DNA from: Lacticaseibacillus parakribbianus
Lineage (GTDB): Bacteria > Bacillota > Bacilli > Lactobacillales > Lactobacillaceae
DNA: 64,000 nt
Reading direction: 5' to 3'
Assembly: GCF_025490915.1 (NCBI RefSeq)
Contig: NZ_JANQBA010000002.1
Span: 186,001 to 250,000 of the forward strand
The notes below the pieces were generated by a model. The model ran no database searches, was not told the origin of the DNA, and saw only the letters and a list, made by a program, of their open reading frames with translations. The position numbers and the translations under genes were made by a program. Of this stretch, positions 21,365 through 38,685 are shown piece by piece. Within the stretch, counting starts at the first letter, position 1. Each line of letters begins with the position of its first letter.

Positions 21365-21829
21365 TCATCCCATCGTTCGGTGCGGTCGGGCGACGTCCTT
21401 GGCCACCAGCTGCTGCCAAAAAACGCCGACCGCCATCATGCCCCAGGCCATGTAGAATCGCGCCATCAGGTTCTCGCTGTAAGGCGGCAGCAGCGGCACC
21501 GCGGCCGCCACCGCGATCACGAGCCCCGCGTAGGCGCGAACCGGCATCCCCTTACTATTATGAAAAATCCAGATTCCCACTCCCACCCCGGCGAGCAAAA
21601 GCAGCCACATCCAGGGTGCATGAAGCGCGGTCAAATTGCCCTGCAGCCGGTTGAGTCCCCAAGTCGTGTAGTTGGCGTGTCGCGCCCGGTACGCCGGGTC
21701 GTTGGTCGCCGCCAGCCGGTAGAAGTGAAGCTTGAAAAACAGCAGCGTTCCCGCGACATACACCAGCGCATAGGCCGCCGCCAAGTACCGGTGAACGACG
21801 TAACGCCGCCACGTCGAATCGTGCCTCAT
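21365..21829 (-). CDS. Small multi-pass membrane protein
   Basis: 154 residues with about four hydrophobic segments. Conserved-looking elements are FYRLAAT, WGLNRLQGNL and PLLPPYSENLMAR. A second gene in this window, at 27512-27994, has the same segments in the same order (YYRLEAS, WGLSRFHGNL, PLMPPYTENLVAR), so the two are paralogs. I do not recognise the family. It sits downstream of nothing obvious; the ABC exporter operon begins 54 bp further along the same strand and could be co-transcribed with it. Confidence 0.7.
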   Translation of the reverse strand: MRHDSTWRRYVVHRYLAAAYALVYVAGTLLFFKLHFYRLAATNDPAYRARHANYTTWGLNRLQGNLTALHAPWMWLLLLAGVGVGIWIFHNSKGMPVRAYAGLVIAVAAAVPLLPPYSENLMARFYMAWGMMAVGVFWQQLVAKDVARPHRTMG

Positions 21830-23818: not shown

Positions 23819-25345
23819 ATGCGCAAGTTATCTGCACAAACCATCAAGATTCTGATCATCCGCTTCGCCGGCACCTTCGGCTCAGGCATGTTGTCGTTCG
23901 CCATCGGCCTGTACATCCTGCAACGCACCGGCTCGGCGCTGGGCATGGGCATCAGCCTGATCACCGGACCCTTGGTATCGCTGTGCCTGACGCCGGTGCT
24001 TGGCTACATCGTCGACACCAAGAACCACCGCGCGATCATGGTATTGGCGCAGCTGGGGACCACCCTGGGGCTGATCGCCTTCGCCGCCGCCTTCGCCCTG
24101 TGGCCGGCCGCCTACTACCAGGAGCTGATCGCCCTGATCGTGCTGCTGCAGATCACCGACAGCTTCCTGAGCACCACCCTGACCGCCAGCCTGGTGCAGC
24201 TTTTCGCCAAAACGGAACTGCAAAGCGTCAACTCGCTGAACCAGTCGCTGCAGTCCCTGGCCAGCTTCCTGGCCCCGGTGATCGGCGCGTTGGTCTACAC
24301 GCTGGTGGCCATCGGCAGCTTCGCCTTGATCGAGGTCGGCTTCGAGCTGATCGCCTTGGTCGGCATCCTGACGCTGAACTTCCACGCGGTGCCAGCCGCT
24401 GCCAGCGAAGCGGCGGCCGAGTCAATGACCGCCGCCGCAACCGGCAAAGCGCCGGCCGAACCGACCGCCGAACCAGCGGCGACCGGGGAACCGACCGCCG
24501 CCACCGCCACCGCAGCCGACGCTGAGGGCGCCACGGCCAACACGGCCGACGCAGCCGTGACGATTGAGGCGGCAACGGCCCCCGCTGCGGCCACCACCGC
24601 CGCGGCCGCAGAAGCGGCGTCTGAGGCCGCCTCCGAACCAGCCGCCACCACCGCCAAGCCCAGCCTCTGGCGCAACTTCGCCGAAGGGTTTCACTTTCTG
24701 CTCGACCGGCCGATTTTCCTGCTGTTGACGGCGACCGGCGCCGCCATCAACTTCTTCTTCGCCGCCCTCAACGTCGGGCTGCCTTACGTCCTGGTCCACA
24801 CGCTGCACCTGTCCAACACCCAGTACGGCTGGACCGACTCGGCCTTTGCCGTCGGGATGTTTCTCGGTGGCCTGCTGCTGTCGCAGATCACGCTGCGCCA
24901 CCACCCGATTGACGTGTCCTACGCCTTCTTGCTCGGCCTGTCGCTTCTGATGGGCGTCCTCGGGCTGCCAACTTTGACCGGCTGGGGCAACGGCGTCAAC
25001 ACCGGATTTTACCTCGTGCTGAACGCGCTTCAGGGCATTTTGCTGGTGTTCGTCAACACGCCGCTCAGCACCTACATGCAGCAGCTGATTCCCGCCAACA
25101 TGCAGGGCCGCGTGTTCTCGCTGCAATCCGCGTTGTCGATGATGCTGATGCCGCTGGGGACGCTGCTTTACGGCGTGTTGTTCGACCACGTCGCCGCCTT
25201 TTGGCTGATGACCGGCACCGGCGTCATCCTGATTGCGCTGGTGCTGGCCGCGATGGCCGCGATGCGCAAGTTCCACCTGCTGGCCGGGCTGCCGACGTTC
25301 GCGCCGGACGCGGCCGAGGCACCGGCGGCCAGCGAGGAAGGCTGA
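23819..25345 (+). CDS. MFS transporter with alanine-rich central loop
   Basis: 508 residues from the ATG at 23819 after CTCAGGAGGCAATC. Twelve helices of the Mef-like efflux type, with GYIVDTKNHRAIM between helices 2 and 3. The loop between the two halves (about residues 192-280) is expanded into a low-complexity stretch of Ala, Thr, Glu and Pro, while related proteins have a short loop. Its coding DNA is repetitive (GCC/ACC/GAA codons). The transport core looks intact, so the loop is probably a tolerated cytoplasmic insertion. Substrate unknown. Confidence 0.85.
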   Translation: MRKLSAQTIKILIIRFAGTFGSGMLSFAIGLYILQRTGSALGMGISLITGPLVSLCLTPVLGYIVDTKNHRAIMVLAQLGTTLGLIAFAAAFALWPAAYYQELIALIVLLQITDSFLSTTLTASLVQLFAKTELQSVNSLNQSLQSLASFLAPVIGALVYTLVAIGSFALIEVGFELIALVGILTLNFHAVPAAASEAAAESMTAAATGKAPAEPTAEPAATGEPTAATATAADAEGATANTADAAVTIEAATAPAAATTAAAAEAASEAASEPAATTAKPSLWRNFAEGFHFLLDRPIFLLLTATGAAINFFFAALNVGLPYVLVHTLHLSNTQYGWTDSAFAVGMFLGGLLLSQITLRHHPIDVSYAFLLGLSLLMGVLGLPTLTGWGNGVNTGFYLVLNALQGILLVFVNTPLSTYMQQLIPANMQGRVFSLQSALSMMLMPLGTLLYGVLFDHVAAFWLMTGTGVILIALVLAAMAAMRKFHLLAGLPTFAPDAAEAPAASEEG

Positions 25346-25401
25346 GCCAGCAGACTCCGAACGACTATCCCTTGCCTTTGACAACGTCACCTCACCAGCT
25401 T

Positions 25402-25430
25402 GTCACCGTTTACGAAGCGGTGACTTTTTT
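25402..25430 (+). terminator. Terminator of the MFS gene
   Basis: GTCACCG pairs with CGGTGAC, followed by six Ts. Confidence 0.85.
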
Positions 25431-25512
25431 GGTTTTAGGAAATGCTCCGATCCCGGCGCTATGCGATTCTGGCCCTTGTATTTTCACGTCTGCAACTCGC
25501 CGTCGATTCTCG

Positions 25513-25541
25513 TTGGCGGCACGGCCGGATGCGCTTACACT
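25513..25541 (+). promoter_or_regulatory. Promoter of the small secreted peptide gene
   Basis: TTGGCG and TACACT with exactly 17-nt spacing, 48 bp upstream of the peptide start codon. Confidence 0.55.
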
Positions 25542-25589
25542 AATCTTGTTGAGGGCCTCGACAAAACAATCAAGGGAAAACATATTGCC

Positions 25590-25736
25590 ATGAAACTTAA
25601 ACTTATCGCCTTAGTTGCCACCATCGCCATCGGTTTCGCTGCGTCTGCGGTTGCGCCAGTCAGCGCCAGCACCCAGGAAGTTCAGCCATTCTACGATCAG
25701 CTCTGGGCTGCCTACCACAATGGCGGTGGCAACTGA
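25590..25736 (+). CDS. Small secreted peptide precursor (48 residues)
   Basis: The ATG at 25590 opens a 48-residue product. A lysine-containing start, then a hydrophobic stretch, then APVSAS gives a convincing Sec signal peptide with probable cleavage after about residue 26. The predicted mature peptide is about 22 residues, ending in QLWAAYHNGGGN. It has its own promoter, but the ribosome binding site (AAGGG, 13 nt away) is poor. An insertion sequence begins 27 bp after the stop, so the original 3' context may be lost. It could be a signalling or bacteriocin-like peptide, or the remnant of a longer gene; I cannot decide. Confidence 0.5.
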   Translation: MKLKLIALVATIAIGFAASAVAPVSASTQEVQPFYDQLWAAYHNGGGN

Positions 25737-25845
25737 TTGCCAGTTACTGCGACGCCAAAAAAGAGTCGTTCAAAGTGCAATAATCCCTTTGTGGTTGTCA
25801 GATGAAATACTATAATTCATCTGGCAATCACGGAGGGATTTTTGT

Positions 25846-26520
25846 ATGCCCAGATCAAAATATACGGTGGAAGAGAAGTTGGCCTTCTTGGCAGAATTCA
25901 GGCACTCTAATCTTGGGCCCAAGAGATTTGAGCGCGAGCACGGACTCAGTGAGCATAGCGTAGAGCGTTGGCAGGCACGATACGAACGCGATGGACTTGA
26001 GGGCCTTAGTGAAGCTAAGCAGAATAACCATTATTCGTCAGCGCTGAAATTAGCTATGGTTCTAGCCTATCAAAATGGCGAAGGAACGCTTAATGAGCTG
26101 GCTCTTCAGTATGGCCTTCGTTCAGAAGCGGACCTCTGCAGATGGATTTCCAAGTATAATGAGGACAAGACTTTGACGGCATCGCCGATCAGAAAACAGG
26201 TCCCCACTATGAGCCGGAAGACAACCTTTGAAGAGCGAATTGAAGTGGTCGAGTATGTGACCAAAGACAAGCATTCCTACGCCGAAGCTGCGGATCATTT
26301 CCAAGTTTCCTATCAGCAAGCCCGTTCCTGGGTACTCAAGGCCAAGGATGGCGGCTATGAGGCTCTCGTTGATAATCGTGGCCACCACAAGGCTCAAGCC
26401 GATCTGACGGAGAACGAAAAACTACGTTTGGAAGTACGTAGGCTCAAGGCTGAGCTGGCCGATAAAGAGCTGGTAGAAGCCTTCCTAAAAAAACTGCAGG
26501 AACTTCAGCGCAGGGGGTGA
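25846..26520 (+). CDS. IS3-family transposase OrfA
   Basis: 224 residues; RBS ACGGAGGG. It has two consecutive helix-turn-helix regions (residues about 5-55 and 120-175) and a C-terminal leucine-zipper-like helix (ENEKLRLEVRRLKAELADKE), the usual OrfA layout of the IS150 group. It binds the IS ends. Near its 3' end there is a run of seven A residues at 26487-26493 from which a -1 shift enters the orfB frame. Confidence 0.9.
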   Translation: MPRSKYTVEEKLAFLAEFRHSNLGPKRFEREHGLSEHSVERWQARYERDGLEGLSEAKQNNHYSSALKLAMVLAYQNGEGTLNELALQYGLRSEADLCRWISKYNEDKTLTASPIRKQVPTMSRKTTFEERIEVVEYVTKDKHSYAEAADHFQVSYQQARSWVLKAKDGGYEALVDNRGHHKAQADLTENEKLRLEVRRLKAELADKELVEAFLKKLQELQRRG

Positions 26521-27410
26521 ACAGAAGACATCGGCTGGCCTACATCGCAATAAGTGAAGTCAGTCAAGGCAGGCACGGCGCCACGGCGACGCTATTAAGG
26601 CTAATTGGTGTGAGCCGTCAAGCATACTACAAAGGCCTAAAATGCGTCGAGACAGCGTGGAAACAACACGACGCCAAGCTCAAGGAAAGAACGCAGTATT
26701 GGTACGACTTCCATCATCAAGGGATTGGCGCGGGTAACCTACTCGTTGCCCTTCAGCATGACCCTGAGGTGACCTTTTCGGTCACCTTCAAAATGATCAA
26801 GCGGGTGCAAAGAGAGCTCGGCATTCACTGCAAGATTAGAGTTAAAAAACGGAATCATCGCAAGGAACGCGAGCAGCACATACTCGACAACGTGCTCAAC
26901 CAGAATTTTGAAGTTGATGGTCCCAACCAAGTATGGCTGTCGGACTCCACGGAATTAAAGTATGGCTTGAATGGTGAACATAGCGTGCGATTGAGCGGTG
27001 TCCTCGACCTGTTCGGACGTCGTCTACTAGCTTTTAAACTCAGCGATACCGAGACCGCAGTTGCGGAGATTCAAGTTTTTCAGCGAGCCTTCGCGGTAGC
27101 TGGGGACGTTCATCCGATGGCGCATACCGACCGTGGTTCAGCGTACACGGCGGGATCATTTAACCACTTCCTAGAGCTTCACAACGTGAAGCGTAGTATG
27201 TCCCGTCCAGGCACACCCTATGACAACGCGCCGATGGAGCGCTGGTGGAATGAATTCAAGCTGCGGTGGATGGGTCGGCACCCAATGGCTAAGACGTATC
27301 AAGAGCTCGTGAAGCTGGTGGAAAAAGGTGTTGAGTACTTCAATCGCCATAATCGTTCGGCACAAAGAAACGGCCTCACCCCAGATGAATACTGGGATAA
27401 AGCCGTTTAG
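26517..27410 (+). CDS. IS3-family transposase OrfB (DDE catalytic domain)
   Basis: 297 residues in the -1 frame relative to orfA. The catalytic triad is visible as VWLSDSTELK (first Asp), AHTDRGSAY (second Asp) and APMERWWNEFK (Glu), within an rve integrase core. The nominal GTG start is only a frame entry point; the active product is probably an OrfAB fusion made by frameshifting at the A7 run. All key residues are present, so the element may be active. Confidence 0.9.
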   Translation: MNRRHRLAYIAISEVSQGRHGATATLLRLIGVSRQAYYKGLKCVETAWKQHDAKLKERTQYWYDFHHQGIGAGNLLVALQHDPEVTFSVTFKMIKRVQRELGIHCKIRVKKRNHRKEREQHILDNVLNQNFEVDGPNQVWLSDSTELKYGLNGEHSVRLSGVLDLFGRRLLAFKLSDTETAVAEIQVFQRAFAVAGDVHPMAHTDRGSAYTAGSFNHFLELHNVKRSMSRPGTPYDNAPMERWWNEFKLRWMGRHPMAKTYQELVKLVEKGVEYFNRHNRSAQRNGLTPDEYWDKAV

Positions 27411-27511
27411 AAACAGACGAAACATTATATTATTTCATCCGTCAACTTGACAGGGCCTAGTGCAAAGTGAACGACTCCTTTTCGGTACTCTTTGGGAAAG
27501 AAGGCCTTGCC

Positions 27512-27994
27512 ATGCATGTCTCACAACACACTCACGATTGGATCTACCGTCATTTAGCCTGGGTTTACGGCATTCTTTACGCCCTAGGCTTCGGCTGGTT
27601 CTATCACACGAAATACTACCGGCTCGAGGCGTCGCTTGACGTCTATTACCGCGTCCGGCACAATACGGCGGAGTGGGGCCTCAGCCGCTTTCACGGCAAC
27701 CTGTTGATGCTTCACTCACCGCTGATGATTGCGCTGCTTGTGCTGGGGGTGGTCGCAGGCATCATCATCTTCGTGAATTCGCGCTTCGATGCGCTACGTG
27801 CTTGGCCCGGCCTGATCATCGCACTTGGTGCCGCCGTGCCGCTGATGCCGCCTTACACGGAAAATCTGGTGGCGCGAATCTACTGCTCATTCGGGCTCGT
27901 CGCCTTTGGCATCTGGGGCCAGCTGATTGTCGGCCGGTCGCTGCCGAAGCGAAGCAATGTCAAGAAGCGTTGGCAGCGCGGCTTTGCACGATAG
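27512..27994 (+). CDS. Small multi-pass membrane protein, paralog of the 21365-21829 product
   Basis: 160 residues from the ATG at 27512; an AAGG sequence 8 nt upstream is the likely binding site. About four hydrophobic segments, with the same conserved blocks as the paralog at 21365-21829 and a basic C-terminal tail (KRSNVKKRWQRGFAR). The IS right end lies 34 bp upstream, so its native promoter has probably been displaced or replaced. Function unknown. Confidence 0.7.
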   Translation: MHVSQHTHDWIYRHLAWVYGILYALGFGWFYHTKYYRLEASLDVYYRVRHNTAEWGLSRFHGNLLMLHSPLMIALLVLGVVAGIIIFVNSRFDALRAWPGLIIALGAAVPLMPPYTENLVARIYCSFGLVAFGIWGQLIVGRSLPKRSNVKKRWQRGFAR

Positions 27995-28106
27995 ACATCT
28001 TGCGTTTACCGCTTGCGTGGCACGTTTTCAGTCAACATCGCACCTCATCCTGCTAGCACAAGCCAATGAAGCATTTCATTCAACATCTACGCGCCTGGTG
28101 TGCCGG

Positions 28107-28964
28107 CTAGATGTCTGGTAACGCAATACGCATTGACTCAATCCACCTGAGCTCTTCATCTGCGAACTCAGTTGCGCCAATGAGTCTCATAGCCGAGATC
28201 AACTGCGCAATCTGCTCAAGTGCATGACCTTCGCCATAGAATCTAAAATGTAGCGCTAATTCCAATAGCTTCATGCGGTGTTTTATGAACACCGTATTTT
28301 TTCTGACCGGTATGCCCCTAAGTACCCCAAGCATTAGGTCAACCAACGCCTTATCATGGTGCTGATCAGCGATATATGCGGCGTTAAACAGGGCGGCCAT
28401 TAACGACTCCTCATATACGCTGTTTTGATCACGACTGTACTCAACCGCAGCCCGCCGAATCAGTGTTTGCATCGGCTTTGAAGGCAAATAGTTGATGGCC
28501 AAGACGAGAATATCATACTCGAACTGGTACCAAGGCTGTGGCCTCAACATCAGCTCTAGGAATTCCTCGACTTGGTTTGAGTCTGTGAAGCGAGAGGAGA
28601 AGTCAGTAGATTGCCACCCGACAGCCGTCAACCAAATCAAGCGGCCAATGTAATCCTGACGGTTCTGGTATTGGGTGACAATCCCATCTAAAGCTTTCGA
28701 GTCTTCTTTTCTCGCGGCTCGCTCGAAGGCAGCCCAGACTTCCGGATAAGGTGTCGTTGTATCCAAATGACCCAGAACCTCAGCAACCGTACAGCCCAAT
28801 TCGTTAAGTACCTGTGAAAGATCTCCCAACGTGAGAGACGATTGCCCGTTTTCAACGCGCGACAGGGTACTAATGCTGACCGGTGCATCAATCTCCTTAA
28901 ACAAAATACCTCGTCGCTGCCTAATCTTTCGAATGACATTACCCAATTCGGTCGTATTCAACAA
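28107..28964 (-). CDS. rgg: Rgg/GadR/MutR-family transcriptional regulator
   Basis: 285 residues. The start is a TTG (28964, or the next TTG at 28961) after GGAGG. Residues about 8-62 are an XRE-type helix-turn-helix with IRKIRQRRGI, STLSRVENG and LSQVLNELG; the rest is an all-helical peptide-binding domain typical of Rgg proteins, which act as intracellular receptors for imported peptides. The gene is AT-richer than its neighbours, suggesting acquisition. It diverges from a 46-residue exported-peptide gene 72 bp away, the arrangement of Rgg-SHP pairs, and the oppABCDF importer follows directly. Confidence 0.9.
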   Translation of the reverse strand: MLNTTELGNVIRKIRQRRGILFKEIDAPVSISTLSRVENGQSSLTLGDLSQVLNELGCTVAEVLGHLDTTTPYPEVWAAFERAARKEDSKALDGIVTQYQNRQDYIGRLIWLTAVGWQSTDFSSRFTDSNQVEEFLELMLRPQPWYQFEYDILVLAINYLPSKPMQTLIRRAAVEYSRDQNSVYEESLMAALFNAAYIADQHHDKALVDLMLGVLRGIPVRKNTVFIKHRMKLLELALHFRFYGEGHALEQIAQLISAMRLIGATEFADEELRWIESMRIALPDI

Positions 28965-29036
28965 CTAATCCTCCAATCATATCCAAGTATCAAGCACAGT
29001 TCTCCGCCACACTATCACGAAAGGAGGGCTCTCACA

Positions 29037-29177
29037 ATGCGCAAAATTCAATTTCACCTGATTATGCTTGCGCTTACGTTGTTCACAGGTGTAACTGTCA
29101 TCCTAACGCCACACAACACAACCGGAAGCGGTTCTACCGGAACGAACAACGTGATCATTACGCGTGTCCAGCCTTGA
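29037..29177 (+). CDS. Short exported peptide, candidate Rgg pheromone precursor
   Basis: 46 residues; a strong GAAAGGAGGGCTCTCACA ribosome binding site marks the ATG at 29037. A positive start (MRKIQ), a hydrophobic core (LIMLALTLFTGVTVIL), then a polar Ser/Thr/Gly segment and the hydrophobic end NNVIITRVQP. It is divergent from the adjacent rgg gene and has its own terminator, as in short-hydrophobic-peptide pheromone genes of streptococci. It is longer than classical SHP precursors (about 20-30 residues), so it may be a distinct type. The mature form cannot be read from sequence. Confidence 0.7.
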   Translation: MRKIQFHLIMLALTLFTGVTVILTPHNTTGSGSTGTNNVIITRVQP

Positions 29178-29190
29178 AAAGTGCAGAAAT

Positions 29191-29244
29191 AAACGCCATT
29201 GCGACCGCAACTTTCATTTTGCGTCAGATGCAATGGCGTTTTTT
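29191..29244 (+). terminator. Terminator of the short peptide gene
   Basis: AAACGCCATTGC pairs with GCAATGGCGTTTTTT, giving a clear rho-independent terminator 14 bp after the stop. Confidence 0.88.
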
Positions 29245-29444
29245 CCTAAGCACTTGCTAAGAAACTTAATTTTCCCCGGCCACCGTCTCGCCACGGTCGA
29301 ACAATTGTCTGCGAATTGCGAACACAAATAAGAATTTGTGTGTGGATGGTCACAATTTCGTCAAACTCGGAAAAAAACTTTGCCCCAGGAATGCCCATTT
29401 GACAGCACATGAGAAAATTATTTGAAATTTCTTCGCAGATTCAG

Positions 29445-29473
29445 TTGACACCAAATTCTCATGGACTTATAAT
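29445..29473 (+). promoter_or_regulatory. Sigma-A promoter of the opp operon
   Basis: Consensus TTGACA and TATAAT separated by 17 nt, 65 bp upstream of the oppA start. The remaining stretch from 29245 to 29444 is AT-rich and holds no gene; it could carry regulator sites. Confidence 0.9.
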
Positions 29474-29538
29474 TTGAACAATTCTTAAATGACCCGGCAA
29501 TCAATGCCACGTCAAAAAATTGTTTGGAGGTTTGCAAT

Positions 29539-31521
29539 TTGGATACTAAAAAGAAATCTGGACTGCTCGCTGTCGGTCTTGTATGTGCAGTAGCACTGGC
29601 AGCATGTGGGGGCAAGAGCAGTAACGGTGACTCCGCGAAGAAGTCGGCCGCACCTACAACTTATAAGTACGTTTACTCAACCGACCCGGACACGTTCGAC
29701 TACACAATCACCTCTCGTGCGACGAACTCCGATCAGCTGCAAAACTGGGAAGATGGCCTTCTTGAGACCAACCAGTACGGTCAGCTCGAAGGCGCCTTGG
29801 CGAAGTCCTACGACGTCTCCAAGGACGGCAAGACCTACACCTTCCACCTGCGCAAGGGTGTTAAGTGGTCCGACAGCGAAGGCAACACGGTGGCCGACGT
29901 GACCGCCCAGGACTTCGTCACCGGCCTGAAGCACGCGGTTGACGGCAAGTCCGAAACCCTGTACGTCGTTCAAGACTCCATCAAGGGTCTGGCCGACTAC
30001 ATCTCCGGCAAGGACAAGAACTTCGACGATGTCGGCGTCAAGGCCGTTGACAAGTACACCGTTCAATACACCTTGAACCAGGCTGAATCCTACTTCCCAT
30101 CCAAGACCACGTACGGTGTTATGTACCCAGTCTACGCGAAGTTCCTGAAGCAACAGGGCAAGAACTTCGGGAAGGCTTCCGCCGACGCCATCCTGTACAA
30201 CGGGGCTTACATCCTGAAGAACTTCACCGCGAAGTCCGTCATCGAGTTCAAGGCTAACCCGAACTACTGGGACAAGAAGAACGTTCACGTTCAAGACGTT
30301 AAGTTGACCTTCAACGACGGCTCCGATCCGGATGGCCTGTACAAGTCCTTCAAGAAGGGCGAATTCAGTACCGCCCGTGTCTACCCTGCTAACCCGTCTT
30401 ACAAGACGGTTCAAAAGCAGGACGGCAACAACATCGTGTGGTCCGACCAAGGCGCCGCGACCTACAACATGACGTTCAACCTGAACCGCAAGTCCTACCA
30501 CGACACCAGCAAGACGACCAGCGCTCAGAAGTCCGCAACCAAGGCTGCGATCCTGAACAAGAACTTCCGTCTCGCCGTGCAGTTCGCGCTTGACAAGGGC
30601 GCCTACAACGCGCAGACCAACGGTAAGGCTGCGGCCACCAAGGCCCTGCGTAACACCTGGACCCCTTACAACTTCGTCAACGTGGACGGCAAGGCTTACG
30701 GCGATGTCGTTTCCGCCGACACCAAGGCCCTGAACAAGGAAGCCTTCGGCGACATCGACTACACCGATGGTAACAACTCGACCTACAACGCCTCCAAGGC
30801 CAAGACCTACTTCGCCAAGGCGATCAAGGAACTCGGCTCCAAGGTTAGCCTGCCAATCCACTTGGATTACCCAACGCTTGAAACCTCTTCAGGTCTGGTC
30901 AACTCCGCGAAGTCCATCAAGGAATCCATCGAAGCATCCCTGGGCAAGAAGAACGTCGTCGTTGACGTTCAGATGCTGAACCTCGACAAGTACAACGCCG
31001 CAACCTACGCCGCTACCGCCGGCAAGGCTTCCGACTTCGACCTGTCCACCGCTTCCGGCTGGTCCCCTGACTACCAAGACCCATCGACCTACCTGGATGT
31101 CTACAAGCCATCCACCGGTTCTTCTCTGATCACCCTGGGCCTGGATGCCGAATCCTCAGGCAACGCAACGGCCGAGACCAAGTCCGTCGAAAAGACGGTT
31201 GGTCTGGACAAGCTTGAGAGCCAGCTCGACAAGGCTGAGGCCATCACGACAGACGTTAACGCCCGTTACGAAGCCTTCGCTAAGGCCGAAGCAACGTTCA
31301 ACGACTCCGCCGTTCAGATTCCGCTGGTTTCCGATGGTGGTACCCCATCTGTCACGAAGGTTGTGCCTTACACCCGTGCTTACAGCTGGAGCGGTTCCGT
31401 TGCCCCAACCTTCAAGTTCATGAAGCTTCAAAAGAAGACCGTTACGACCAAGCAATTCAACAAGGCGAAAGCCGCATGGCAAGCAAAGCGTACGGAAATC
31501 GCAAAGGAAAACCAAAACTAA
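29539..31521 (+). CDS. oppA: Oligopeptide ABC transporter substrate-binding lipoprotein
   Basis: 660 residues; the TTG at 29539, 8 nt after GGAGG, is the best start. A lipoprotein signal (LAVGLVCAVALAACGG) places the acylated cysteine near residue 23. The remainder is an SBP_bac_5 oligopeptide-binding fold, with the length of AmiA-type proteins. Codon use is strongly biased (AAG, AAC, TCC, GTT), as for a highly expressed gene. It captures peptides for nutrition and probably for signalling. An attenuator hairpin separates it from oppB, so OppA is likely made in excess over the rest. Confidence 0.95.
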   Translation: MDTKKKSGLLAVGLVCAVALAACGGKSSNGDSAKKSAAPTTYKYVYSTDPDTFDYTITSRATNSDQLQNWEDGLLETNQYGQLEGALAKSYDVSKDGKTYTFHLRKGVKWSDSEGNTVADVTAQDFVTGLKHAVDGKSETLYVVQDSIKGLADYISGKDKNFDDVGVKAVDKYTVQYTLNQAESYFPSKTTYGVMYPVYAKFLKQQGKNFGKASADAILYNGAYILKNFTAKSVIEFKANPNYWDKKNVHVQDVKLTFNDGSDPDGLYKSFKKGEFSTARVYPANPSYKTVQKQDGNNIVWSDQGAATYNMTFNLNRKSYHDTSKTTSAQKSATKAAILNKNFRLAVQFALDKGAYNAQTNGKAAATKALRNTWTPYNFVNVDGKAYGDVVSADTKALNKEAFGDIDYTDGNNSTYNASKAKTYFAKAIKELGSKVSLPIHLDYPTLETSSGLVNSAKSIKESIEASLGKKNVVVDVQMLNLDKYNAATYAATAGKASDFDLSTASGWSPDYQDPSTYLDVYKPSTGSSLITLGLDAESSGNATAETKSVEKTVGLDKLESQLDKAEAITTDVNARYEAFAKAEATFNDSAVQIPLVSDGGTPSVTKVVPYTRAYSWSGSVAPTFKFMKLQKKTVTTKQFNKAKAAWQAKRTEIAKENQN

Positions 31522-31559
31522 GTTCAAGGGTAGTATAATGAGAACTTAGAAGTGCGTTG

Positions 31560-31593
31560 AAGGGTTGGCACTTTCGGGTGACCAGCCCTTTTT
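31560..31593 (+). terminator. Attenuator hairpin between oppA and oppB
   Basis: AAGGGTTGG pairs with CCAGCCCTTTTT. It probably reduces transcription into the permease genes. Confidence 0.75.
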
Positions 31594-31621
31594 CTTCTGA
31601 AAAAGAGAGAGAGGACTTTAT

Positions 31622-33112
31622 ATGAAGAAATATCTGTTTTTCCGGATCCTGCGCTCGCTTGTGAGTATCTTCTTGGTGACCACGCTTTCGTACATCATCA
31701 TTTACTCACTGGTTCCCCGAAGCGATGTGCTCAAGGACGACCCGAACATCCGCAAGCTGCTTGCGACCCCCGATAAGTACATCGACTACCAGAACAATGC
31801 GTTCCAGAAGATGAACTATATCGAGTACAAGGACACCAAGTCTTTGATCGCCGCAGTGAAGAAGGACGATAAGAAGACCGCCACCACCGCCCACACCGCC
31901 GCCAACAAGGCGCTGTTCGATGCCTGGGCCAAGAAGACGGGCTACACCATCCAGCGCTTCAAGCGCAGCAAGGACTACTACGCCACGCGCGAGTTGTCGA
32001 TCTTTGAGCGTCTCGGCCGCTTCTACGGTCGCCTGATCCAGATTGACACGCCTTGGGCCATTCACGACAAGTCCAACCCCGGCCTCAAGCGCTACCTGAA
32101 GATTCAAAAGGATCCGCTGGTCGGCTGGGCCTTGGTCGGCTCCGGCACCAAGTACCGCTACCAGATCTACTTCAACGACAAGTTCCCGTACATTCACCAG
32201 AACTTCCTGAAGTTCGACCTCGGGATCTCCTACCCGACCTACGCCGGCAACCAGGTCAGCCAGGTCATCGGTGGTGGTCAGGGCCAGACCGTGGCCAAGC
32301 AGTACAAGATCAACGGCCAGACCTTGAACCTGTCCAACAACGTCTACACCCGCGCCTACCAGAAGAAGAGTCAGCGCGACGAAATGACCTACGACCGCTT
32401 CAAGGATGATTACACCAGCACCACCTCGACCATGAGCGATCCGTCGATGATCGGCACCTCGTTCCGTGCCGGCATGATCGCGCTGGTCATCCAGTACCTG
32501 ATTGCCATTCCAATGGCCATTTTGATGGCGCGTTACAAGGGCCGCCTGTTCGACCGCATCGGCACCGCCATCGTCACCGCCTTCATCGCGATTCCTTCTT
32601 TGGCCTTCATCTTCGCGTTCCGCTACGTCGGGGCCAACGGCTTCGGCCTGCCGGGCCTGTTCCCGACTTACGGCGCCGGTGACATCCGCTCCTGGATTCT
32701 GCCGTCCGTCATCCTCGGGTTGCTCGGGGTCTCCGGGCTGGTCATCTGGTTCCGTCGTTACATGATCGACCAGCAGCAGTCCGATTACGTCAACTTCGCC
32801 CGGGCCAAGGGCCTGAACGAAGGCGAAATCTACCGCAAGCACATTTTCAAGAACGCGTCGATCCCGATTGTCAACGGGATTCCAGGCTCGATCATCGGCT
32901 TGATCGGCGGCGCCACCATCACCGAGCAAGTCTTCGCGATGCCCGGGATGGGCAAAATGTTGCCGACCTCGATTCTCGCCCACAACAACACGGTCGTCAT
33001 CGCCTTGGTCTTCATCTTCACGACCATCGGGGTGCTGTCCGTCCTGCTGGGTGACCTGTTGATGGTCGTCGTCGATCCACGCATCAAACTTACAACGTCA
33101 GGAGATGATTAG
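31622..33112 (+). CDS. oppB: Oligopeptide ABC transporter permease (long, AmiC-like)
   Basis: 496 residues; RBS GAGAGGACTTTAT. One N-terminal membrane helix is followed by a soluble extracellular insertion of about 230 residues and then five helices, the AmiC type rather than the 300-residue OppB type. The cytoplasmic EAA-like loop for ATPase contact is visible in [22 protein letters not shown]. It forms the channel with OppC. The stop TAG overlaps the GTG just before the oppC ATG. Confidence 0.93.
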
Positions 33113-33114
33113 TG

Positions 33115-34047
33115 ATGGAAAATCCAGAGATCAAAGATTCCGATTTCAAGCTGGTCAAGCTGGATGAAGAGGCAAGCGAAAAAATCGACACGCCGAAGTA
33201 CTCGTACTGGCGCTCGGTTGGCCGCCAATTCTTCTCCAATAAGATCACGATCATCGTCTTGGTTGTCATGGTTGTTGTGCTTTTGATGTCCTTCATCCAG
33301 CCGATGTTTTCCGGCTACAGCCTGACCGACGTGACCGGCGTGAACGACCTGTCCCGCCGCTTCAAGTGGCCGTCCATGCAGTACTGGTTCGGGACCGACA
33401 AGGATGGTAAGTCGCTGTTTGACGCCATCTGGGCCGGGGCTCGCACCTCGATTTCCATCGGGGTCATCAGTACCTTGATCACCATGGTCATCGGCGTTTT
33501 GGTCGGCGCCATCTGGGGCGTCTCCAAGAAGGTCGACCGCGTGATGCTGGAAGTCTACAACGTCATCAGTAACGTCCCAAGCCTTCTGATTGTCATCGTG
33601 CTGTCTTACACCTTCGGCTCCGGCTTCTGGAACCTGATTTTCGCCATGACCGTCACCAGCTGGATTGGGACCGCGTACTTCATCCGTGTTCAGGTCATGA
33701 TCATGCGTGACCGCGAGTACAACATCGCCTCCCGGACCCTCGGGACGCCGACGGTGCGGATGATTTTCCGCAACATCCTGCCTTACCTGACCTCGGTTGT
33801 CGTGACCAACGCGTCGACCACGCTGCCCGGCTTCATCTCCTACGAAGTGTTCCTGTCCTTCCTGGGCGTTGGGCTGAGCCAAAACGTGCCGTCTTTGGGC
33901 CGTCTGATTTCCGATTACGCGCCATACATCACCAGCTACCCTTACTTGTTCTGGCTGCCGGTTCTGGTCTTGGCTTTGATCACCATTTCGCTTTACGTGG
34001 TTGGTCAGAACCTGGCCGACGCATCCGATCCACGGACGCACCGTTAA
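33115..34047 (+). CDS. oppC: Oligopeptide ABC transporter permease
   Basis: 310 residues from the ATG at 33115; a GTG at 33112 overlapping the oppB stop is the alternative and shares the same AGGAG. One N-terminal helix after a cytoplasmic segment of about 45 residues, then five helices. The EAA loop is [21 protein letters not shown]. Partner of OppB in the membrane; third gene of the operon. Confidence 0.93.
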
Positions 34048-34081
34048 GCTTTGCAGTCAAATAATCTAGGGAGGTAATACT

Positions 34082-35152
34082 ATGGCAGACGACGTAATTC
34101 TCAAAGTTGACGACGTGTCCGTGAACTTCAAGGTTCGCGGCAAGGTTCTCAAAGCGATCCACCATGTTTCCATGGAGCTGCACGAAGGCGAAATCTTCGC
34201 CCTCGTTGGCGAGTCCGGCTCCGGCAAGTCCGTGTTCACCAAGACCTTCACCGGGATGCTGGAAGGCAACGGTGACATCGTCGGTGGCACCATCGACTAC
34301 CGCGGCAAGCACCTGGAAACCCTCAAGAAGGACAAGGACTGGGAAGGCATCCGCGGCAAGCAGATCGCCACGATTTTCCAGGACCCGATGACCTCGCTGG
34401 ACCCGATCAAGACGATCGGCTCCCAGATTTCCGAAGTCATCATCAAGCACCAAGGCAAGGGCAAAAAGGAAGCCAAGAGCATGGCCATCGACCTGATGGA
34501 CAAGGTCGGTATCCCGAACGCCAAGAACCGCTACGACGAGTACCCATTCGAGTACTCCGGCGGCATGCGCCAGCGCATCGTCATCGCGGTCGCCTTGGCC
34601 TGCCACCCGGACATCCTGATCTGCGATGAGCCGACCACCGCGCTTGACGTGACCATCCAGGCCCAGATTCTGGAGCTGATCCGCGAGCTGCAGGCGGAAT
34701 ACAAGTTCACGACGATCTTCATCACCCACGACCTCGGCGTTGTCGCCTCGATCGCGGATCGCATCGCCGTAATGTACTCCGGGCGCATCATCGAAGTCGG
34801 CACCTGCGACGAAATTTTCTATGACCCGAAGCACCCGTACACATGGAGTCTCCTCTCTTCACTGCCGCAACTGGCAACCCGCGGCGGTCAACTCTACTCC
34901 ATTCCGGGTACCCCACCGTCACTGTACAAAGACATCGTGGGCGACGCCTTCGCGCCGCGCGACCCGTGGGCGATGGCGGTCGACTTCAAGGCCGACCCGC
35001 CGATGTTCAAGGTCTCCGACACGCACTACGCCAAGACCTGGCTCCTGGATCCCCGGGCGCCTAAGGTTGAAAAGCCTGAACTGATTCAAAACCTGCACGA
35101 GAAGCTTTTGGCAAACACGACTTATGGGAAGGGTGAGCACGTTGACGACTGA
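34082..35152 (+). CDS. oppD: Oligopeptide ABC transporter ATPase OppD
   Basis: 356 residues; RBS AGGGAGGTAATACT. Walker A GESGSGKS at 43-50, signature YSGGMRQR, Walker [13 protein letters not shown], and the C-terminal oligopeptide-transporter extension that begins near [12 protein letters not shown]. It powers peptide import together with OppF, whose start lies within the last codons of this gene. Confidence 0.95.
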
Positions 35153-36086
35153 AAAAGAAGTTCTCCTATCGCTCCGTGACCTGGAGATCACCTTCGGCAA
35201 GTTCGTCGCCGTCCAAGATGTCAACTTCGACATCTACAAGGGCGAAACGTTCTCGCTTGTCGGTGAATCCGGCTCCGGTAAAACTACCATCGGCCGCGCG
35301 GTTTTGGGCATCAACCCGACCAGCAACGGCACCATCACCTTCGAGGGCCAACAGATCAACGGCGGCCTGAAGGGCAAGGCCAAGCACGAACTGGAACGCA
35401 AAATCCAGATGATTTTCCAGGACCCAACCGCCTCCTTGAACGAACGCGCGACGGTCGATTACATCATCTCCGAGGGCCTGTACAACTACGGCCTGTTCGA
35501 GAACGAAGAAGACCGCATCAACAAGGTCCGCACCATGCTCGAGGAAGTCGGGCTGCTGCCGGAGCAGCTGTACCGCTACCCGCACGAATTCTCGGGCGGC
35601 CAGCGTCAGCGCATCGGCATCGCCCGGGCCTTGATCATGAAGCCCGACTTGGTGGTCGCCGACGAGCCGATCTCCGCCTTGGACGTCTCCATTCGCGCCC
35701 AGGTCCTGAACCTGCTGAAGAAGTTCCAGCGTGAATCCCAGCTGACCTACCTCTTCATCGCCCACGACCTATCCGTCGTTCGCTTCATCTCCGATCGCAT
35801 CGCCGTCATTCGCTCCGGCCGCATCGTGGAGCTGGCGGAGACCGAAGAGCTGTTCCGCCACCCGATCCACCCCTACACGCAGTCGCTGCTGTCGGCCGTG
35901 CCGGTGCCGGATCCGCAGATTGCCCGGCACATCAAGCCGATCGTCTACGACCCAACCCAGCACCACTACGAAACCGACAAGCCGAAGTTCGTCGAGCTGC
36001 TCCCGGGCCACTTCGTCTACTGCAACGCACCGGAAGAAGCCGCCTACCGCAAGCAGCTGGCGGCCGAGGGCAAGACCCAGGCGTAA
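35142..36086 (+). CDS. oppF: Oligopeptide ABC transporter ATPase OppF
   Basis: 314 residues from the TTG at 35142, 9 nt after AAGG; the ATG at 35124 and GTG at 35133 have no suitable site. It overlaps the oppD end by 11 nt. Walker [10 protein letters not shown] at 41-49, signature FSGGQRQR, Walker [13 protein letters not shown], and the [12 protein letters not shown] extension. Last gene of the importer operon, followed by tandem repeats and a terminator at 36346-36371. Confidence 0.95.
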
Positions 36087-36111
36087 CCCACCGAGGACAA
36101 CCCACACCCAA

Positions 36112-36242
36112 GTGCGTGAGTTGAAATCCCGCTGCACTGGAAGCAAACGCGAAACGCGCGATGTACCAGTGCGTGAGTTGAAGTCCCGCTGTGCTGGAAG
36201 CAAACGCGAAACGCGCGATGTGACCAGTGCGTGAGTTGAAAT
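36112..36242. repeat. 57/58-bp tandem repeat, two full copies and a partial third
   Basis: Units begin with GTGCGTGAGTTGAA at 36112, 36169 and 36227. The whole unit is conserved, including AAGCAAACGCGAAACGCGCG, with two or three substitutions between copies. The third copy breaks off after about 16 nt. It lies between the oppF stop and the operon terminator, so it would be in the 3' untranslated region. Confidence 0.85.
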
Positions 36243-36345
36243 TTCCGTCACGCCTTGGCGCGACCACCGGCCGGCGGTGGGCCCCCTCACCGCCGCCTAA
36301 CCTTCAAACACCGCGTGCGACCGAGCCCCCTCGGCCACACGCCGG

Positions 36346-36371
36346 GCCCCGCAGGAATGCGGGGCTTTTTT
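36346..36371 (+). terminator. Terminator of the opp operon
   Basis: GCCCCGC pairs with GCGGGGC, followed by six Ts. The stretch 36372-36526 holds no gene I can support. Confidence 0.85.
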
Positions 36372-36526
36372 GTGTGGTCCAAGCGGCGCCGAGCGGGAAT
36401 AGCCGGACACGTCGGGTGGGGTTGGGCCTTGAGCCGAGTACCGGTGCGTCGTTAGCCACTTCCGCGCTGTGCGGCTACGAACCACCTAACCAAAAACGTC
36501 GCGTGATAACGTGGCTTGGCTATCAG

Positions 36527-36555
36527 GTGACAGACAAACATGTTCATGCTAGAAT
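36527..36555 (+). promoter_or_regulatory. Promoter of a short structured RNA
   Basis: GTGACA and TAGAAT with 17-nt spacing; TGC precedes the -10 as an extended element. Confidence 0.7.
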
Positions 36556-36561
36556 GAGGGT

Positions 36562-36693
36562 ACAGAAAAACGCGGTGCTGCCAACACCGCGGGATACACA
36601 TATCCTCGTACGACCGTTTTGGAACGGTGGCGAGTCAGGCGACAAAGAAAACCGCGAGACTTCGGGAAAAGTTTAGCGCGGTTTTTCTTTGTC
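36562..36693 (+). ncRNA. Candidate small RNA, possible type I antitoxin
   Basis: A good promoter drives about 130 nt without a credible reading frame, ending in a strong terminator. Three stems can form: CGCGGTG with CACCGCG, ACCGTT with AACGGT, and the terminator stem GACAAAGAAAA-CCGCG with CGCGG-TTTTTCTTTGTC. A small membrane-type ORF converges on the same terminator from the other side. This is the layout of par/Fst-type toxin-antitoxin loci. The identification is inferred from layout; no sequence match is claimed. Confidence 0.5.
36641..36693. terminator. Shared bidirectional terminator
   Basis: A near-perfect long stem with A/T runs on both sides, placed directly after the stop codon of the convergent small ORF (36694) and at the end of the small RNA. 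Confidence 0.85.
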
Positions 36694-36909
36694 CTATTTT
36701 GGTTCCCCGGGGTTCCGGGACGCCGTCTTCCAAGTCGCGGCCGCGATCAGAAGCGTCGCCAGCGTTCCGCCTAGCTCGCTGATGGCATGCGAGTTGGCGG
36801 TTAGCCAGTTCCAGACGGTGCCAATCAATGCACACCAGTCGCTTACGTACAAGATGGACACACCTTTGGTCGGATTGCTGATCGGATGATGTTGCCACCA
36901 TTCGGTCAC
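36694..36909 (-). CDS. Small membrane-type ORF, possible type I toxin
   Basis: Up to 71 residues from a GTG at 36909; AAAGGAGG lies directly at this codon, so the true start may be further in (for example the GTG near 36843). The distal part contains a hydrophobic stretch (ELGGTLATLLIAAATW) and a polar end (KTASRNPGEPK), which resembles small single-span toxins. The stop codon is immediately followed by the shared terminator, which supports it being a real gene. A TACAAT at 36957-36962 is a possible -10. No sequence family recognised. Confidence 0.4.
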   Translation of the reverse strand: MTEWWQHHPISNPTKGVSILYVSDWCALIGTVWNWLTANSHAISELGGTLATLLIAAATWKTASRNPGEPK

Positions 36910-37067
36910 CTCCTTTCGTCGGTTGGACCACCGCTCTTCACTTTCGTACTGGCGTCATTGTATCATGCATCATAAAGTTTTGTACATGAACCCATCGTTG
37001 CCTCGTTTTCTAAACAAAAAAGGCCCAGACGGCCGCCGCAGTGATCCGTCCGTGCCGTTACTTCCGC

Positions 37068-37835
37068 TCAGTCTCCCCGCAGCCCCAGTGCCGCCAGCGC
37101 GGCGTCCTTGGGGGTCCTCAAAAGCACCACCCAGGCCGCGGCGGCGACGAGCAGGTCCAGCGCCAGCATCACGCCGTACAGCGTCCCCGACTGCGGACCG
37201 CCGCCGGCCGCGTTGAAGACGGTCGCCACATCGACGACGGCATGCAAGGCGATGCCCCACAGCAGGCTGCCGGTTTTCAGGTACACGGCCGCGTAGGCGA
37301 AGCTGAAGGCCAGGGCCGCGACCCCTTGGGCCAAGATGGCGTAGCCGGACATCCCGGTCAAAGACATCACAAGCGTCATGCAGGCCTCCACGATGCCGCC
37401 GATCAACACCGCGTACCACAGCCGGTCCCGGCGCAGCATGCTGGGCAAGAGCAGGCCGCGAAACAGTCCTTCGCGCAAGGCGGCCCCGACCAGGCTGTAC
37501 AAAACGGTCCCGGCCGCCACCGCCGCGGTTTGCTGCACCGCCCCCCAGCGCGTGGTCGCCGCCAGGATCACTGCGACGCCAAGCGCCGGCAGGCTCAGCC
37601 ACCCCGCCGTGCGGCCGTCGTGCCAGGCCAGCCGCCAGCTCACGGAAAGCGTCAGCCAGTTGAACAGGCCCAGCGCCAACAGCGCCACCACCTCGGCCAG
37701 GGTCGCCGCCCAGATGGTCTCGCCCAGCCCGTAGCCCAAGAGGCCACCGGCGATCGTGAACACCAGATACACCAAGACACAGACCAGTGCGGCCCAGCCG
37801 CCGCGGTGGTTCGCCACAAACTGCTTATATTTCAT
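37068..37835 (-). CDS. CPBP-family membrane protein (Abi/CAAX protease-like)
   Basis: 255 residues with about seven hydrophobic segments; RBS CAAGGAGAATAACG. The conserved region reads LREGLFRGLLLPSML and later FAYAAVYLKTGSLLWGIALHAVVD, which fits the CPBP intramembrane protease family. The first glutamate of the usual EExxxR motif is replaced by arginine (REGLFR), so protease activity is uncertain. It overlaps the end of the AraC regulator by 11 nt and is probably co-transcribed with it. In lactobacilli such proteins are often linked to bacteriocin self-protection; no bacteriocin gene is visible here. Confidence 0.8.
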   Translation of the reverse strand: MKYKQFVANHRGGWAALVCVLVYLVFTIAGGLLGYGLGETIWAATLAEVVALLALGLFNWLTLSVSWRLAWHDGRTAGWLSLPALGVAVILAATTRWGAVQQTAAVAAGTVLYSLVGAALREGLFRGLLLPSMLRRDRLWYAVLIGGIVEACMTLVMSLTGMSGYAILAQGVAALAFSFAYAAVYLKTGSLLWGIALHAVVDVATVFNAAGGGPQSGTLYGVMLALDLLVAAAAWVVLLRTPKDAALAALGLRGD

Positions 37836-38685
37836 CGTTATTCTCCTTGGACGCGCGTTTGGCGCGGTATTGAGTGGGGGCTTGCCCGAACGCCCGGGTG
37901 AAGCTGCGGGAAAAGGCCAGCGGGTCGACGTAGCCGACCGCCTGGGCGATCTGCTGCACGGGAAAGCTCGTGCGAGCCAGCAGGTCGGCCCCTTTTTGTA
38001 GCCTGAGGCCGACCAGGTACTGCTGCGGCGACACCCCGATGCCGTCCTTGAACAGCCGGTACAAGTAGCCGCGCGACAGGTTCAGGTGCCCGGCGACGTC
38101 GACGACGCTCAGCGGCCGGTCGTAGTTGGCCTCAAGGAACGCCTGGGCCTGGCGCAAGTAACGCGCCTGGCGCGGCAGCGGCGTCACCTGCTGCGGGTGT
38201 TCCCGGGCCAGCCAGTACAGCAGCCGGTAGAGCTCACCGGTCAAAAGCAGGTCGTGATCGGCGTCAGCCGGCGCCTGGGCCAGCGCCATCAAGGCATGCA
38301 GCTGCTTGACGAACTGGGAGTCGGGGTCGCAGTGCAGGTAATTGGCGGTGGTCAACGCGCTGCGGCCCAAGTACGAGGTGACCTTGGTGCCGCTCATGCC
38401 CAGCCAAAAATATTCCCACGGGTTGGTGGCGTCGGGCCAATAGGCGGTCGGCACGTTGGGCGGCAGCAGGAAGCAGTCGCCCGGCCCCAGTACGACGGTG
38501 TGGCCGTTGCAGGCGAAGCTGCCCTTGCCGCGCAGCACGTAATGAATCACCGCGTTGCCCTTGAGCATCTGCCCGTTGGACGTCGCGTTGGGCCCATGCG
38601 CCAGGCCGCAGAAGTCGAAGTTCAGATCCATCTGCGTGGCGGCGTAGGCCTTGAAAAAAAGTTCGTCCGGTCGCAGCTTGACCAT
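37825..38685 (-). CDS. AraC-family transcriptional regulator of the beta-glucoside genes
   Basis: 286 residues. The N-terminal cupin-like sensor domain contains GKGSFACNGHTVVLGPGDCFLLPP; the C-terminal domain has two helix-turn-helix units (VVDVAGHLNLSRGYLYRLFKDGIGVSPQQYL and VQQIAQAVGYVDPLAFSRSFTRAFGQAP). It diverges from the phospho-beta-glucosidase gene across 124 bp that includes a TGTCCA-N8-TGGACA palindrome, so it probably controls that gene and its PTS partner in response to a sugar or sugar phosphate. Confidence 0.9.
   Translation of the reverse strand: MVKLRPDELFFKAYAATQMDLNFDFCGLAHGPNATSNGQMLKGNAVIHYVLRGKGSFACNGHTVVLGPGDCFLLPPNVPTAYWPDATNPWEYFWLGMSGTKVTSYLGRSALTTANYLHCDPDSQFVKQLHALMALAQAPADADHDLLLTGELYRLLYWLAREHPQQVTPLPRQARYLRQAQAFLEANYDRPLSVVDVAGHLNLSRGYLYRLFKDGIGVSPQQYLVGLRLQKGADLLARTSFPVQQIAQAVGYVDPLAFSRSFTRAFGQAPTQYRAKRASKENNDEI

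Follow-up and report, generated by a model that had tools for sequence, protein, structure and literature searches.

Does a gene for an Rgg-like regulator that stands back to back with a very small open reading frame (ORF) encode the receptor of a peptide signal, and is the small ORF the gene for that signal? The question is raised by a locus of Lacticaseibacillus parakribbianus (contig NZ_JANQBA010000002.1) lying in the 64-kb stretch of DNA analyzed here, hereafter the window, in which an Rgg-like regulator gene, a divergently transcribed ORF of 46 residues and an oligopeptide importer cluster, oppABCDF, lie side by side (Table 1). A first-pass annotation had proposed that the three might form a complete peptide-signalling module. 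Our analysis indicates that the first two probably encode a cytoplasmic pheromone receptor of the Rgg type and, divergently, the precursor of its peptide, an arrangement of an already known kind; the importer is a plausible re-import route but does not define the module.

Table 1. Features of the regulator-peptide-importer locus, with positions in the window.
Feature	Position	Strand	Basis and remarks
Rgg-like (RRNPPA) regulator gene	28107..28964	-	285 aa; N-terminal helix-turn-helix and TPR-like helical domain; TTG start
Intergenic region between the two divergent genes, presumed to hold their promoters and the operator	28965..29036	.	72 bp
Candidate pheromone precursor gene, 46 aa, MRKIQFHLIMLALTLFTGVTVILTPHNTTGSGSTGTNNVIITRVQP	29037..29177	+	ATG start; Shine-Dalgarno sequence; basic N-terminus; hydrophobic segment; chance test; class association
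Intrinsic terminator of the peptide gene	29178..29255	+	Fold -31.4 kcal/mol, z -5.7; terminator-like site 29221-29239
oppA promoter, TTGACA-17-TATAAT	29445..29473	+	12/12 consensus match
oppABCDF oligopeptide importer, a likely uptake route though probably not a dedicated one	29539..36086	+	SBP_bac_5, BPD_transp_1, OppC_N; NF043080 OppC above cut-off

The anatomy of the gene pair was described accurately by the first-pass annotation. The peptide ORF has a strong ribosome site, AAAGGAGG, 9 nt 5' of its ATG, an export-like N-terminus (such N-termini were scored throughout by charge and hydropathy) and a polar tail ending in NNVIITRVQP, and GGAGG precedes the TTG start of the regulator. The terminator ascribed to the peptide gene likewise held up: none of 200 shuffles folds as well, a T run is present, and it is one of the three terminator-like sites found by a pattern scan of 28000-29700, in which 1.6 were expected. 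As it follows the peptide gene immediately, this terminator points to the signal itself as the local output. Profile searches returned no family match for the 46-residue peptide, and no Rfam family reached its gathering score in 25000-38000.

The ORF is unlikely to be a chance frame. Small exported ORFs were defined as ATG-initiated frames of 28-60 residues with a Shine-Dalgarno (SD) run, a hydrophobic stretch of ten residues and at least two basic ones within the first nine positions. When 20,000 sequences were generated from a first-order Markov model of 28965-29538 (plus strand only), a qualifying ORF arose in 12 at an SD run of at least four and in none at an SD run of at least seven, and the 46-residue ORF is the sole ORF in the window that qualifies at the latter threshold.

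The predicted fold of the regulator combines a helix-turn-helix (HTH) with a TPR-like, peptide-binding type of domain and is the same as that of the streptococcal Rgg2/Rgg3 receptors, with about 16% identity to Rgg2 in the structural alignment. The sizes and spacing of the two products (46 and 285 residues, 72 bp apart) agree with the RRNPP_detector signature of a precursor of 10-100 residues adjoining a receptor of 250-500 residues (PMC10075063). Relatives of the regulator at E <= 1e-15 occur in 6 of 30 genomes of the genus, its own included, and only that of L. kribbianus (48%) exceeds 28% identity within the genus. No relative was found in viral contigs or on plasmids; the Rgg of genome G057 has three plasmid records. 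Since orthologs of the regulator are this scarce, the association between small exported ORFs and Rgg genes was tested at the level of the class.

A qualifying divergent ORF within about 200 bp was found at 7 of 62 Rgg-family genes, whereas none of the 263 remaining genes of these loci has one (p = 6.9e-6). This count was made with criteria chosen after examples had been seen, and it excludes the precursor-like ORFs L136 6002-6127 and L168 1612-1752, which fail the strict SD or orientation criteria. Two of its seven cases represent the same peptide, from a pair of near-identical genomes, and another, at locus L107, is a different, two-segment protein of 59 residues. With the criteria frozen, 29 receptor-search loci new to the analysis yielded 4 of 31 Rgg-family genes versus 0 of 112 other genes (p = 0.0019), two of the four being in orthologous loci, which leaves three independent cases. 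All four qualifying ORFs in the 220,847 bp of these new loci diverge from an Rgg gene. In genus g60, two orthologous loci whose receptors are 84.5% identical have both kept the peptide, and since the differences fall 4, 2 and 15 by codon position (36 codons), this peptide appears, from the alignment, to be translated and selected.

The genome that contains the window also holds a second pair. A paralog of the regulator, 25% identical (G000:C30:9254-10093, locus L105), has a divergent 48-residue ORF 98 bp away, MRRPWWKILCAMIMIFSVAGIIIISNETDGGDSFAVSHRTVLWSEVTQ, whose ribosome site is again AAAGGAGG; it is followed in the same direction by the gene for a 283-residue protein with an export-like start, for which no Pfam match was obtained at E <= 1. 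Both receptors of this genome fall in one eight-row set of the tree (98/90), in whose other relatives no such peptide was found. The predicted fold, the class association with its out-of-sample test and this second pair support the interpretation of the window locus as a receptor with a divergent pheromone precursor.

Several other loci with small ORFs beside Rgg genes were noted. A tandem pair of Rgg genes at L136 3460-6127, in another genus of Lactobacillaceae (g29), is accompanied by divergent exported ORFs of 40-41 residues, one per Rgg gene; next to them lie ABC transporter-like genes and a gene for the bacteriocin lactococcin-972 (PF09683, 80 bits). L195 4441-4596 and L203 4380-4544 are conserved Rgg-divergent precursors that have GLQLWRDM and GASKLIYLPP in common. 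In L195 the ribosome site is overlapped by a palindrome, GAAAGGATCCTTTC (one base off in L203), which may be an operator. The similar 59-residue proteins L107 3732-3911 and L109 3606-3785, encoded beside Rgg genes in two genomes of the window's genus, have two hydrophobic segments and are a different type of small protein.

In the strongest competing explanation, the Rgg regulates the 46-residue product but does not sense it; the product would be a membrane or secreted peptide of small size (an effector, a bacteriocin-like peptide or a small regulatory protein), and the true ligand another peptide or nothing at all. It would suit the lactococcin-972 gene beside the L136 pairs and the second small exported peptide near the window pair (25590-25736), as well as the MutR and GadR regulators, which are named as close to Rgg and lacking quorum-sensing activity (PMC9765709). 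Two further secreted proteins, in L205 and L004, are suspected of belonging to the lactococcin-972 kind but have no Pfam match. Against it, short exported ORFs divergent from Rgg genes recur in four genera (g1, g29, g60 and g19) with different sequences and a similar layout, as receptor-specific signals would. We regard the target-peptide explanation as unlikely, and do not claim homology of all precursors, whose common basic-hydrophobic start is too simple to serve as proof.

A number of observations weigh against the receptor-precursor interpretation. The class association weakens when a neighbour on any side within 300 bp is accepted (4 of 31 versus 4 of 112 in the new loci, p = 0.067), because every ORF adjoins one other gene too. 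Most Rgg genes have no such ORF by the same criteria (55 of 62 and 27 of 31), and those that do are scattered on the tree, with six changes for seven rows, a number as low as which was obtained in 115 of 500 shuffles; with all seven rows labelled, a single-clade origin of peptide-bearing Rggs is thus not supported. The window regulator remains below the cut-offs of the curated Rgg C-terminal models (PF21259, 13.9 versus 27; TIGR01716, 18.8 versus 36.9); PF21259 is passed by the paralog in its own genome (40.2) and by the G057 relative (100.8), and TIGR01716 is matched at E <= 0.01 by all seven members of group A1. No sigma-70 consensus was found in 28965-29036 and no operator emerged from the alignment with L. 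kribbianus, in which TATCACGA, common to both species, is alone conspicuous within this region (no regulon search was made). Conservation of the peptide beside rgg orthologs, by which the first-pass annotation could be judged, proved negative or unclear. Searches with the peptide gave matches in 6 of the 30 genus genomes at E <= 1 and, below E 0.5, in its own genome only. The chief counter-evidence comes from L. kribbianus, the only ortholog found, where the peptide spot holds no intact frame from a canonical start and no terminator-like site; this break is either decay or a sequence error.

Comparison of the two species shows where the locus has changed. Identity to L. kribbianus is 83% for the LytTR protein, 90% for the LiaF-like protein and 71% for the MFS protein of the flanks, and within the importer it is 90% for OppA and OppB, 96% for OppC and 98% for OppD and OppF. 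Between these flanks it falls to 55% for a membrane protein and 48% for the regulator (62% in the HTH part, 44% in the TPR part), and the peptide has no significant match. At the DNA level, identity is 0.52 for rgg, 0.38 for the peptide gene (81 aligned bases, 60 in gaps), 0.75 for 29241-29444 and 0.95 from the oppA promoter onward. The receptor-peptide block is far more diverged between the species than most of the sequence around it, a pattern that a signal-receptor pair changing its specificity would be expected to leave; relaxed selection, or an allele from elsewhere taking its place, would produce a similar block, and two genomes cannot separate these. The lower G+C content noticed in the first-pass annotation is borne out at third codon positions (GC3), with 0.54 for rgg and 0.53 for the peptide gene versus 0.76-0.86 for the opp genes. 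The LytTR, LiaF-like, MFS, CAAX and AraC genes lie at 0.80-0.90, the neighbouring 175-residue membrane protein gene and the other small peptide gene are intermediate (0.72 and 0.61), and the L. kribbianus rgg has a GC3 of 0.65. The low values of the regulator and peptide genes would fit import of the block.

The same comparison could be taken to mean that the system is dead or dying, i.e., that an ancestral pair lost its peptide in L. kribbianus, the copy in the window is a leftover, and the Rgg has been kept for another role. The broken frame and missing terminator in L. kribbianus, the truncation of the second peptide there, the low GC3 and a transposase gene pair ending 0.7 kb from rgg are all compatible with such decay. 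In the window, however, neither gene is broken, a strong SD and a terminator are present, and the L. kribbianus break, seen in one assembly, could be a sequencing error; we consider this explanation improbable. More improbable still is the proposal that the ligand is a leaderless micro-ORF product of the RopB type with the 46-residue ORF unrelated. Leaderless communication peptides (LCPs) are present in Lactobacillaceae, that of Limosilactobacillus reuteri being divergent from its receptor (PMC10518010). Yet when both strands were searched over 520 bp upstream and 400 bp downstream of the regulator gene for further ORFs of at least six codons with an SD run of at least five, a single one appeared, a downstream 9-residue TTG ORF, MTENVPRKR, which is not LCP-like, and the micro-ORF ligand is accordingly rejected as very improbable.

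Whether the importer belongs to the receptor-precursor pair is a separate matter. The first-pass annotation placed an Ami-type importer 362 bp beyond the peptide gene; the distance from the peptide stop is 361 bp with OppA starting at TTG 29539, a start set by its GGAGG (the first possible ORF start is 29524), and the oppABCDF families were confirmed, with a family 5 binding protein, two permeases and two ATPases. The proposal of a complete module is supported for the receptor and divergent precursor and not for the membership of Opp. The 12/12 oppA promoter, the one site found in a scan at 9/12 or better (2.2 expected), occurs at the same site in L. kribbianus, where 89 of the 94 bases of 29445-29538 are identical. 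OppA orthologs (E <= 1e-60) are present in 9 of the 30 genus genomes, its own included, and in only two of these nine is the regulator within 1.5 kb of oppA, which in one genome is in pieces. At the 11 other pair loci, oppA, oppB and oppC are absent throughout, and only ABC ATPases of 23-30% identity were found there. Because of its own promoter in both species, the 2/9 linkage and the lack of oppA, B or C at the other pair loci, we treat the adjacent Opp as probably a general importer. A 57-bp tandem repeat (2.3 copies, 93% matches, 36111-36242) directly follows oppF.

From the gene anatomy, predicted fold and class-level association we infer a course of export, processing, import, binding and regulation. 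The 46-residue precursor would be exported through its basic-hydrophobic N-terminus, either by Sec or by an exporter of the EcsAB/PptAB type together with a membrane protease, and be cut to a short C-terminal peptide within NNVIITRVQP. This peptide may re-enter the cell through an oligopeptide importer, for which the adjacent Opp is the obvious candidate, and bind the TPR-like domain of the regulator, which would then switch the peptide promoter in the 72-bp region and unlinked targets. The genome has a single EcsB-type exporter gene, a feature of 2 of 14 control genomes; it also has a single gene for an M50 membrane protease, which is uninformative because all 14 controls have one as well. 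In Streptococcus thermophilus, Rgg peptides are reportedly exported by PptAB, going by the title of PMC7564271.

Such a system would share with streptococcal Rgg2/Rgg3 and their short hydrophobic peptides (SHPs) the receptor fold, a small peptide gene with a basic-hydrophobic start beside the receptor, and EcsB-type exporter and Opp genes in the genome. SHP precursors have about 20-25 residues and end in a hydrophobic peptide, whereas here the precursor has 46 residues and a polar Ser/Thr/Gly-rich tail ending in NNVIITRVQP; precursor length and layout thus fit the earlier suggestion of a class different from SHPs. The longer precursor is reminiscent of the PlcR-PapR/Phr-type systems of Bacillales, in which a longer precursor carries an export sequence and a C-terminal signal. 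The precursor layout of PrgX-cCF10/iCF10 of Enterococcus differs from that seen here, and no conjugation genes were noticed by eye among the ORFs around the window pair. The export-like N-terminus and the length of the precursor also distinguish it from the ligands of RopB-LCP systems, mostly leaderless peptides of 8-10 residues that were tested in L. reuteri (PMC10518010). Lactobacillaceae are among the families with RRNPP-linked gene clusters (PMC10075063), the method of PMC9765709 found no propeptides adjoining Rgg, ComR or PrgX, and rgg2/3/4 and comS-encoded XIP are mentioned for L. paracasei HD1.7, with a ComS/XIP-Rgg pathway reported (PMC12346395). A long-precursor Rgg system in Lacticaseibacillus was not found described in the titles and abstract openings of the literature searched.

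The region preceding the regulator gene differs in gene order from L. kribbianus around a transposase pair, 25846-27410 (+; 224 and 297 residues, an rve domain in the second), which we take to be IS3-like and which lies between the second small peptide gene and a membrane-protein gene. The small peptide gene, 25590-25736 (+), encodes 48 residues with a Sec-like signal ending in SAS and a mature end HNGGGN; a relative lacking the N-terminus (64% over 33 residues) adjoins rgg in L. kribbianus. It was rejected as the cognate peptide, being 2.4 kb away behind the transposase pair and having only this truncated relative beside the L. kribbianus rgg. Two similar small membrane proteins, 27467-27994 (+; 175 residues) and 21365-21829 (-; 154 residues), have no Pfam match above cut-off, and the former has matches (51-55%) at two L. 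kribbianus positions.

A broader reading, which we offer tentatively and consider less likely than not, is that Lactobacillaceae possess a broad class of Rgg receptors, of which no description was found in the papers searched, with long (34-54 residues), leader-bearing, divergently transcribed pheromone precursors. On this reading the receptor and pheromone genes in the window's lineage of Lacticaseibacillus would form a hypervariable pherotype locus, flanked on both sides by conserved sequence and neighbouring a peptide importer, and closely related species would as a result have parted into distinct signalling groups. Rgg-mediated peptide quorum sensing has been best worked out in streptococci, and lactobacilli are used in food and as probiotics. 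With the caution that the module is not defined by adjacency to an importer, the receptor-precursor pair, the second pair in the same genome and the family-wide association are testable candidates for communication codes in Lactobacillaceae.

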